Shown here: piece by piece, positions 1-27,843 of the stretch
Layout of the letters: the number at the start of each line of letters is the position of its first letter
Numbering within the stretch: position 1 is the stretch's first letter
Source: Williamsia sp. 1135
Lineage (GTDB): Bacteria > Actinomycetota > Actinomycetes > Mycobacteriales > Mycobacteriaceae
Direction: 5' to 3'
NCBI RefSeq assembly: GCF_002095395.1
Contig: NZ_MJEI01000106.1
Span: 62,001 to 126,000, forward strand
DNA length: 64,000 nucleotides
Notes under the pieces: model-generated
Databases searched by the model: none
What the model was told of the DNA's origin: nothing
The model's input: only the letters and a program-made list of their open reading frames with translations
Made by a program: the position numbers and the translations under genes

Positions 1-3000
1 AACGCGTATTCACCGATTTTCCAGGTGTTGCTCTCGATGCAGAACAACGAGCGTGTCGATATCGACGTAGCCGGAGTGCGGGCGCAGATCAACAACCTGA
101 GCTCTACGCGGGCAGCGCAGTTCGATCTCTCGTTCAACCTGTTCGAGTTGTACAACCCGACCACGTTCGCCCCGGAGCGCTTGGGCGGTGAATTGAGTTA
201 TGCAACAGATCTTTTCGATGAGCATTCCATGACCGAGCTTGCTGACAGATTTGTGGCAACGGTCCGTTCCTTGGTCTCCGCGGCCGCCGGAGTCGTCGGT
301 GACATCGATATCCGGACCGCTTCCGAGAAAGGGCTCGGAGTTCCGTCGGTCGTCGAGCTGCTGGCCACCGACAACATCCTCGAGTTGATCTCCGCGGCAG
401 CGTCCGTCGATCCGGATGCCATCGCCGTGCGCCATGGCGATGTCTCGGTTTCCTACCGTGACCTGCACGGGCACCTGACGTTGGTCGGAGCACCTCTTGC
501 CGCGCGTGGGCTCAGTGATGATGCGGTGCTGTCGGTCTCGCTGGCGGGGCTCATCCCGGCGACGGCCACGCTGCCGCCGAACGGGCCGGGAGGAATCGGC
601 TCGGTCATCGATGAATTGGTGGCGACGACGACGGGGATCGTCGCCAATGGCGGCGGTATCGAACAGTCGCTGCGCGCGGCCGTGTCACGTTCTGGCGCGG
701 ACACGCTGGCCTCGCTCTTCACAGAACAGGCAGCGAGAACTCCGGACGCAGTCGCAATTCGGTTCGGCGACGAGAACCTCGACTATGACGAGTTCGCTCA
801 GCGGGCCGGACGCCTCGCGCGGCATCTGATCGAGGAGGGTGTCGGACCCGAATCGCTTGTCGGACTTGCGGTGCCGCGATCGCTCGAATTGTTGATCGGT
901 ATGTACGCGATCACCCTCGCAGGCGGCGCGTACGTTCCCATCGATCTCGAACACCCGGCCGAACGGATCGCCCACACGCTGCGCACCGCCGATCCGGTGT
1001 GTGTTCTCGTACTGGCCGATGCGGAGCCGCTGCCAGGCTTCTCAGGTGCGACCATCGAACTCGACAGGGTAGACCTATCTCGGTACCCGGGCGGCGCGGT
1101 CTCCGACACCGAGCGCTCGGCACCGCTTCGTCCGCACAACACCGCGTACGTGATTTTCACCTCGGGCTCCACCGGCAAGCCGAAAGGCGTTGCCATCAGC
1201 CATGGTTCGATCGTGAACCGTTTGCTGTGGATGCAGGGGGAGTACGGCCTGACCGCGGACGATGTCGTGTTGCAGAAGACGCCGGCGACATTCGACGTAT
1301 CTGTCTGGGAGTTCTACTGGCCGCTGCAGGTGGGCGCGCAACTCACCATCGCGGCGCCAGGTGGTCACCGGGATCCTGGCTACCTGCAGTCGCTGATCGA
1401 GCGGCACGGGGTGACCACATTGCACTTCGTCCCGTCGATGCTACTGATCTTCGTTGCGGCAGCAGACCCTTCGGCGCTGATGTCACTGCGCCTGGTCTTC
1501 GCCAGTGGTGAAGCTCTTCCGGGTGCTACGGCTGCGGCCTTCCGCCGGATATCGGCTGCGCCACTGCACAATCTGTACGGCCCCACCGAAGCAGCCGTCG
1601 ACGTCTCCTACCACGAGTGGACCGAAGCGGACGGCGCGTCGGTCCCGCTGGGGGTAGCGGTCAGCAACACCGAGTTGATCGTGCTCGACGATCGCTTGCG
1701 CCCGGTGCCCGCCGGAGTGGCCGGGGAGTTGTATCTCTCCGGCGTCCAGTTGGCGCGCGGGTATGTCAACCGCCCCGATCTGAGCAGCGACCGGTTCGTC
1801 GCGCTTCCGAACGGACTGTCGACCACTTCGGGCGCCGGCACCCGGATGTACCGCACGGGCGATCTCGTCCGTCGCAGGGCGAGCGGAGAGCTCGAATATC
1901 TGGGGCGCACAGACTTTCAGGTCAAGCTCCACGGACTCCGCATCGAACTGGGTGAGATCGAGTCGGTGTTGCTCGGCGCCGACGGCGTGACCGGCGCGGT
2001 GGTCCTGGTCGTGGACGACAACATCGGCCAGCGGTTGGTGGGGTATGTGACCGGGCAAGGCGACGTCGACGTCGACCTGCTCCTGGATCAGTGCCGGACG
2101 CGGTTACCGGAGTACATGGTTCCGACAGCGCTACTCCAGCTTTCCGAGTTTCCGACCAACGCCAACGGAAAGCTCGACAGGGGTGCGCTTCCCGTCATCG
2201 AGGTGGTGACGAGGACCGACGAGTTCGTTCCGCCCACGAATCCGCTCGAGGAGGTCGTCGCGAATCTCTTCGCCGACACCCTCGGTGTCGCCCGTGTCAG
2301 TGTCACCGCCTCGTTCTTCGAGCAGGGAGGCAACTCTCTCGGTGCTGCCCGTCTTGCGACCAGGGTCTCGGAGACGCTGGGAACCACGATCGGGATCCGC
2401 GACCTGTTCGAGAAGCAATCGGCACGGGCACTCGCGCACCTGATAGATGACCGCAGGTCCGCAGGTGACACCGGCGGAGCGGTGGTTGCGGCGCGCTTCG
2501 TCAAGCCTGATGTGCCACGTCCGCAACATGTTCCGCTGTCGCTCGCCCAACAACGTCTGTGGTTCATCAACAGGTACGATCCGGAGACCGGTGCGTACAA
2601 CATCCCGATGACGCTGCTGTTCACGGGTGATCTAGATGTCGAGGCTCTCGGCGCTGCGCTGGTCGACCTGGTCGAAAGACAGCAGGCAATCAGGACCATC
2701 TACCCGCAGGGTCCGGACGGACCCCACCAGGTTGTCGTCCCGATCATGGAGGCGCTTCCCCCGTTCCGGCTCGACTCCATTCCGCAGGAACAGGTGTGGA
2801 ATCGGTTGCGGGCCTTTGCAAAGCCTGGCTTCGACGTCACCACCACGGTGCCATTTCGGTCAGCACTCTGGCACCTCGAGCCCGCCGACCCTGTCGCAGG
2901 TGTCCCCGACGAACACCTGCTGGTCATCGTCATACACCACATCGCCTCGGATGGTCTCTCGATGCAGCCCTTGGCGGCGGACCTGCTCACCGCCTACCGC

Positions 3001-27492: not shown

Positions 27493-27843
27493 GTGAACGA
27501 TATGATCCCGGCGCCGGGGCGCCCTGTAGATGCGGGTATCCCGGTTGCAGCAGTGGTGGCCCGAGTCGCTGCCACGCGACCGGCCCGCGTCGCCGCCGAG
27601 TTCGGCGATGAGTTCGTCACCTACGGCCGCCTCAACACCACCATCGCGGCGTACCGCGCAGTCATGGACGAGCAGGGCGTGGACGAGAATGCGGCGATCT
27701 TTGCGGCCATCCTCAACACGTTGCCGGGCCTCGCCGACGAAACCCCGGGGCGGGTCACCGATCGCATCACGAGCATCTTGCGGGGGATCACCGGTGATAC
27801 CGCCGCCTGGACCGACGGGGACCAGACCAGACAGGTCGGCTGA
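27493..27843 (+). CDS. Free-standing 116-aa protein resembling the start of an NRPS A domain
   Basis: No named family recognised. Residues about 15-60 read like an A-domain N-terminus (VARVAATRPARVAAEFGDE, then FVTYGRLNTTIAAY). They are followed by EQGVDENAAIFAAILNTLPG and a helix-like tail (DRITSILRGITGD). The layout matches, nearly without gaps, the two inserts in the NRPS at 349-657 and 7156-7428. No ATP-binding or lysine motif is present, so it cannot activate amino acids. It is not MbtH-like (no NDEGQYSLWP-type block). The start is GTG at 27493, with AAAGGCAG upstream at about 7-nt spacing; a TTG at 27466 is possible. It is the only gene pointing right between two leftward blocks. A role as a partner or regulator of the synthetase is a guess. 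Confidence 0.7.
   Translation: MNDMIPAPGRPVDAGIPVAAVVARVAATRPARVAAEFGDEFVTYGRLNTTIAAYRAVMDEQGVDENAAIFAAILNTLPGLADETPGRVTDRITSILRGITGDTAAWTDGDQTRQVG

Follow-up and report, generated by a model that had tools for sequence, protein, structure and literature searches.

Elements at a nine-module synthetase locus of Williamsia

The window, a stretch of 64,000 nucleotides from Williamsia sp. 1135 (contig NZ_MJEI01000106.1, positions 62,001 to 126,000 of the forward strand), opens inside an NRPS gene which, with contiguous pieces joined, forms a single open frame of 11,282 aa whose sole stop lies at its end. Two copies of a small element, cis1 and cis2, are embedded in this chain between C and A domains, and three further copies are encoded as free genes, of types A, B and C, giving five copies in this genome. 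Upstream of the window the gene order is free A, MbtH, free B, NRPS; the third free gene, type C, lies within the window. The features are as follows:

Window 1..25005, plus strand: C-terminal 8,334 aa of the 11,282-aa NRPS of nine modules; the ORF starts upstream, at contig position 53157
Window 367..636, plus strand: cis1, in-cis element (NRPS residues 3071-3160), found by the free-only profile at i-E 9.8e-11
Window 700..1764, plus strand: module 3 A domain with Ser code DVWHFSLVD, directly after cis1; the end given is that of the main-part Pfam match
Window 7150..7419, plus strand: cis2, in-cis element (NRPS residues 5332-5421), found by the free-only profile at i-E 4.2e-13
Window 7438..8990, plus strand: module 5 A domain with Thr code DFWNIGMVH, directly after cis2; end approximate
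Window 27493..27843, plus strand: free element of type C, 116 aa, with a GTG start and AAAGG upstream
C48:51196-51603 and C48:52216-52641, upstream of the window: two further free copies, on either side of MbtH

The original prediction had described two in-cis segments and a 116-aa gene sharing one layout, and all three sit where it put them; in place of its in-cis coordinates (349-657 and 7156-7428) we use profile boundaries (367-636 and 7150-7419 of the window). The start codon of the type C gene is also the one at which the ORFs of three close orthologues open.

Several other features of the locus were recorded alongside. The NRPS gene lies near ribosomal protein genes, L2 being found by Pfam at window 43888-44721; by eye, S10-type operon genes were seen in related loci L037 and L099, and mycofactocin-like genes in L037, so that the NRPS site near ribosomal genes is apparently conserved across genera. 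The last domain of the Williamsia NRPS is of E type (window 24000-25005), with no thioesterase seen in the chain; a thioesterase-like motif closes eight gene ends in genus g9. Two possible defence genes follow further downstream, namely a large protein with AAA and HerA-like Pfam matches (window 47576-51025, minus strand) and a CHAT-domain protein recognised by Pfam (window 61248-62636, plus strand). One locus in our collection, L075, comes from a record titled Kitasatospora arboriphila NRRL B-24581 and is very like that of Williamsia muralis; the strain is probably mislabelled.

The in-cis and free copies belong to one family of about 90 residues. A profile built from 20 free proteins (118 positions, no in-cis sequence) recovered both in-cis segments with the i-E values listed above, over profile positions 18/19 to 105/106 of 118. 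Real A-domain starts of the same NRPS reached at most 15.6 bits against this profile, essentially over its first half, and one weak match among them extended to position 76 of 118. Profile-profile comparison with hhalign, for which the profiles of the types were built apart, gave E-values of 1.6e-7 for free C against cis1, 1.3e-9 for free C against cis2 and 8e-18 for cis1 against cis2, and all eight separately built element types are inter-related (E 2e-5 to 8e-25). The similarity first noted in three segments stands, and the family is larger than it appeared then; the element is real, conserved and, as far as our searches show, undescribed.

Its start is, as the original prediction had it, that of an A domain: the first ~55 residues are homologous to A-domain starts in NCBIfam, PDB and hhalign comparisons alike. 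NCBIfam models of A domains and acyl-CoA synthetases match the first half of the element, profile positions ~5-63 match A-domain starts in the PDB (best single stretch LgrA, 6mfy, i-E 1.1e-7), and hhalign against the nine A-domain starts of the element's own NRPS covered 37-59 columns at E 4e-14 to 4e-5. The second half has a conserved core of its own, A-x-x-x-A-x-x-x-x-x-P-x-L. Against 78 A domains it gave nothing convincing (best i-E 0.24), and used alone it matched, within the NRPS, just cis1 and cis2 (1e-8 and 4e-12). No sign of a remaining A domain was seen in the element, which bears out the reported absence of A-domain core motifs; the accompanying idea of a module that had lost adenylation oversimplifies, since the second half cannot be recognised as degraded A-domain sequence. 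A homologous first half joined to a second half unmatched in A domains points, from sequence comparison, to a chimera, part A-domain start and part new, rather than to a merely degraded A domain. A crude propensity plot, to which we give low weight, suggests helix in the first part, then a hairpin, and some helix in the second half.

There is no Pfam family for the element: at E<=0.01, 66 elements gave matches to AMP-binding (12), PAS_8 (3), Candida_ALS (1) and Defb50 (1), with PF00501 reached by just 12 of the 66. Neither Pfam nor NCBIfam assigned the free protein to an unrelated family. Such an identity was rejected, the matches being to A-domain and acyl-CoA-synthetase starts, together with scattered weak ones (DUF7553, PAS_8, Candida_ALS, Defb50, RipC).

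Placement within chains, at split joints and as free genes

Across related genomes, cited here by our own handles (G for genomes, g for genera, L for loci), the element was seen in three placements: inside one chain, at the ends of split synthetases, and as free genes. An order-wide search (298 genomes, 59 matching at E<=1e-9) found no element beyond family f1; matches outside f1 stop by about profile position 72 and resemble A-domain starts. Judged from these profile matches, occurrence outside f1 is unproven, because they cover the A-domain-like half only. A tally of 273 of 401 genomes likewise takes in A-domain starts and is not an element count.

In unsplit synthetases the placement is regular. 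All six NRPSs compared (Williamsia G000, G002, G004 and G025; G013 of g6; G030 of g23) carry one element before A3 and one before A5, and partial reads of G089 and G218 agree with this arrangement. Among the 28 genomes of g23 searched, 24 of which matched at E<=1e-12, two in-cis elements lie in one long frame (8,270 to 11,291 aa) in 13 genomes, and an adjacent pair of elements lies in two frames in 8. Because every full-length match in these 28 genomes at E<=1e-12 falls in a frame of at least 1,711 aa, g23 shows no free copy at that threshold. Beside the g6 NRPS of G013, too, no free partner was found. The joined stretch of that genome (L097, L042 and L098) also holds, at 52702-54999, an ORF in which a short, eroded A-like domain comes after a partial element.

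The original prediction had further remarked that both in-cis copies stand before A domains for hydroxy amino acids. This is correct for the window genome, where the downstream codes are those for Ser and Thr; the link fails in the relatives. Across the six related NRPSs, the A domain after cis1 has a Ser code in 2/6 and a different, Asn-like code in 4/6, and the one after cis2 has Thr in 2/6 and Ser in 4/6 (code positions and meanings are presumed to be those of the PheA structure and the common codes). A hydroxy-amino-acid substrate link is ruled out by this comparison of codes, and the element is not tied to substrate.

At split synthetases, we distinguish an X element, which ends the upstream protein after its C domain, mostly with a short tail, from a Y element, which opens the downstream protein before its A domain. 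Both elements are present at 28 of 30 C|A junctions, drawn from 26 genomes of g6, g9, g15, g21, g22 and g27. These loci were chosen because at least one element matched; since they were fetched in this way, the informative part, and the surprise, is the partner element on the other side of the junction. Four junction sets (G688, G328a, G328b and G118), in which the ORF was cut or broken, were labelled by eye, and in G106 X and Y lie on separate contigs. One of the two incomplete junctions (G028:C16, L132) has its Y start close to a contig end. At G034:C140 (L134), the 10 kb upstream of a Y start contain neither an NRPS nor an X; this orphan Y-start NRPS occupies 178-9906 of L134, and its partner is perhaps elsewhere in the genome. 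In the tail behind one X element of G328 (L118), a 12-residue repeat, VTGAGSEASGPN, occurs about four times.

The spacing of adjacent X and Y elements is constant in phase. In genus g22 (78 genomes), 57 genomes matched at E<=1e-12, with 97 full-length matches in 55 of them. Adjacent pairs occur in 35 genomes, always in two different frames (35/35) and with gaps of 59-260 bp that equal 2 modulo 3 in every case (35/35). This phase fits overlapping or abutting stop and start codons, such as were found at seven inspected X|Y junctions of g9, g22 and g27; in G028a, G067 and G205 the two ORFs do not overlap and are ~125-170 bp apart.

The elements also occur as pairs that are not neighbours. Of the 27 unpaired full-length matches in g22, 14 belong to seven genomes with two distant matches each, and 13 are single. 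Inspection of six of these seven genomes (all but G663) revealed an X-type end and a Y-type start in 6/6: in G412, a single contig of 7.31 Mb, the X-NRPS and the Y-NRPS are 1.8 Mb apart, and in the other five X and Y lie on different contigs, away from contig ends. No A domain was seen upstream of the Y gene in the stretches read from these genomes. The X gene is followed there by a gene of two incomplete, decayed A-domain pieces, without Y (L146:10803-13898, L148:10846-13386, L150, L156 and L158), which has the look of a synthetase in decay, perhaps at the former site of the Y partner. In the four single matches inspected (G078, G416, G667 and G688), the partner adjoins and falls below the threshold.

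Counted over gene ends, in what is a biased sample, X is found on 24 of 31 that close in a C/E-type motif versus 1 of 23 that close in T, TE or A, and several of the seven C/E-type ends lacking it are terminal E-type domains. Of 37 genes opening with an A domain, again in a biased sample, 11 lack Y; these comprise five decayed A-fragment genes behind X, three g9 genes (L035, L099 and L103) and three ORFs in frame-broken or doubtful stretches (L109 and L152). In G103 and G205, no element could be detected at the NRPS2|NRPS3 C|A split.

A spacer or hinge, loosening the contact between C and A without needing a partner, would account for the single in-cis copies of g23 and g6, which have no known partner, and for the one Y-starting gene without a nearby X. 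It leaves unexplained the paired copies at protein ends, the constrained unlinked pairs and the free genes beside MbtH, and we consider it highly improbable.

X and Y are under purifying selection even though unlinked, to a degree like that of their catalytic neighbours. In the six unlinked g22 genomes, dN/dS values, which are rough because synonymous sites are near saturation in many pairs, were 0.16 and 0.19 for the first and second halves of X and 0.17 and 0.16 for those of Y, with 0.22 for the adjoining C-domain end and 0.13 for the A-domain start. At four g9 junctions, the second half gave 0.11 and 0.14 versus 0.27 and 0.31 for the first, with few finite dS values. The free genes A, B, C and D mostly gave 0.07-0.28 (one pair 0.38, one pair with dS undefined), and four type C genes that are very close to one another gave 0.33-1.33 on few changes.

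This constraint bears on the possibility that the copies are relics, that is, A-domain starts left behind after A-domain exchange or gene splitting. Such an origin would fit the homology of the first half and the variation between species in the A-domain codes of modules 3 and 5. However, the second half matches none of the 78 A domains convincingly, both halves of X and Y are as constrained as catalytic neighbours, the free genes are under purifying selection, and one and the same element turns up at two modules of a single NRPS, at the ends of proteins and as separate genes. The relic account is largely refuted and, in our view, extremely improbable.

Among the free copies, types A, B and C occur in Williamsia, A and B also in G019 (g12), and a further type, D, in g9, where, among the matches listed, 48 of 51 matching genomes have one in a frame of 212 aa or less. 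A weakly resolved tree of 97 elements over 91 columns groups free B, C and D together (SH-aLRT 97) and free A with the X of g9 (99); Y (95), cis2 (99) and cis1 (94) form separate groups, and B alone is unsupported (32). A and X also give the strongest profile match among the types (hhalign E 8e-25). A and X are therefore apparently the same element, free in one lineage and at the synthetase C-terminus in another: loci of Williamsia and G019 have free A, and the g9 loci examined have X in its place.

The free genes differ in their relation to MbtH, which was confirmed by Pfam in six cases and called by motif in the others. MbtH lies 297-574 bp upstream of free B in 16 of 17 distinct cases, the exception being L037 of G019, and directly upstream of free D in 21/21 (19 by motif, plus L113, plus L104, for which MbtH is at the end of the neighbouring L103). 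B or D thus comes after MbtH in 37/38 cases, in two gene orders. Free A precedes MbtH in 16/17, and no MbtH is present in the stretch surrounding type C (8/8). Nor was MbtH detected by motif in the element-carrying stretches of g6, g21, g22, g23 and g27, a statement that covers those stretches only.

With MbtH so regularly upstream of B and D, these proteins could be trans-acting helpers that, together with MbtH, fold or activate A domains, the NRPS-borne copies being fused helpers. The position of Y, cis1 and cis2, each immediately in front of an A domain, agrees with this. Yet X stands at a C-terminus after a C domain, with no A domain behind it in the chain, and still groups with a free type; type A precedes MbtH rather than following it, and no MbtH was found in the stretches around type C or, by motif, in the element-carrying stretches of the five genera just named. 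We regard a helper role as unlikely.

Proposed docking at the C|A joint

Within a module, C and A domains normally pack against each other, connected by a linker. Docking at this joint is the best-supported reading of our observations, which concern homology, placement, pairing, phase, constraint and gene neighbourhood, and we think it fairly probable that the element is a non-catalytic association module. A docking-type role, which the original prediction had raised, is suggested by the placement of the element at C|A splits; paired copies at natural cuts, a fixed phase and selection that persists when the partners are unlinked are what would be expected of a docking pair.

On the docking reading, the element would keep the counterpart of the helix-hairpin-helix start of an A domain (~55 residues) and add a new, possibly helical second half. 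The A-domain start would be plausible raw material, because it normally comes after a C domain. For a pairing surface, the best candidate is the second half, which every copy has and A domains lack. At a split joint, we infer that X, after the C domain, binds Y, before the A domain, and so would keep a module's C and A domains together in trans. Unsplit synthetases (Williamsia; g6, g13 and g23) would retain a single in-chain copy at modules 3 and 5. Free copies may bind chain-borne ones, with A taking the place of X and with B or D made together with MbtH; which copy pairs with which, and each step by which the free proteins would act, is put forward here as conjecture.

Several observations stand against docking. 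The in-cis copies of g23 and g6 lie in unsplit synthetases, where there is nothing to bridge, and searches for a partner found none; the Y of L134 is an orphan; the C|A split in G103 and G205 is element-free; and an A-gene without Y follows X in the unlinked g22 loci. Simple one-to-one pairing is also insufficient, because there are up to five copies in Williamsia and three in g9. A portable C|A docking system, in which soluble A, B/D and C proteins, some of them tied to MbtH, would plug into chain-borne elements and control in trans whether a module works and with which partner, is a tentative extension that we rate as possible, if doubtful.

The unlinked X/Y pairs make the docking idea directly testable, and, if it is true, A-T-C units could be exchanged with X and Y as a pair already at hand. 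Domain annotation would then be overlooking an element that many synthetases of this bacterial family contain, and small unnamed genes next to MbtH could encode parts of a synthetase.

Comparison with known systems

Our search of the open-licence literature found nothing about an element like this one, and the available portions of PMC10522769 and PMC9205934 hold nothing to the point. For Rhodococcus, the accessible part of PMC5550956 reports an unknown NRPS-2 that is conserved in most rhodococci.

MbtH-like proteins (PF03621) are likewise small and encoded beside NRPSs, and free B and D are their direct gene neighbours; however, PF03621 was matched by 0/66 elements.

In tomaymycin biosynthesis, an N-terminal PCP-like domain of the NRPS TomB serves as an adaptor (PMC11186497, in the part available). 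The likeness lies in the reuse of a ~90-aa relative of an NRPS domain for subunit recognition, which we propose for the element. In contrast, the TomB adaptor, as described in that part of the source, is carrier-protein-like, stands before a C domain and recruits a carrier protein, whereas the element derives its start from an A domain and stands at C|A; at the sequence level, no carrier-protein family appeared among its 4 Pfam families or among 25 of its 32 matching NCBIfam families.

The docking domains of NRPSs described in the available portion of PMC9113145 include beta-hairpin domains, COM domains at E/C junctions and PAX domains, the latter from a PCP/C junction; a class at C|A, or one derived from an A domain, is not named there. 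Like docking domains in general, the element occurs as a pair at the C- and N-termini of consecutive subunits (28/30 junctions). COM and PAX, as presented in that portion, stand in front of a C domain, whereas all 28 complete junctions are C|A; the element also differs from them in being ~90 aa long, partly A-domain-derived, and present in unsplit chains and as free proteins. By sequence and position, the element appears to resemble a docking domain in placement without falling into any described class.

A parallel in position is artificial: an NRPS cut in the C-A linker works when synthetic zippers hold the halves together (PMC8362031, in the part available). Those zippers are man-made coiled coils, whereas X and Y are a natural pair that would act by docking. 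The docking domains covered in the available portion of PMC9113145 act before C domains, and a natural C|A pair, if the docking reading is true, would show nature cutting where engineers try to.
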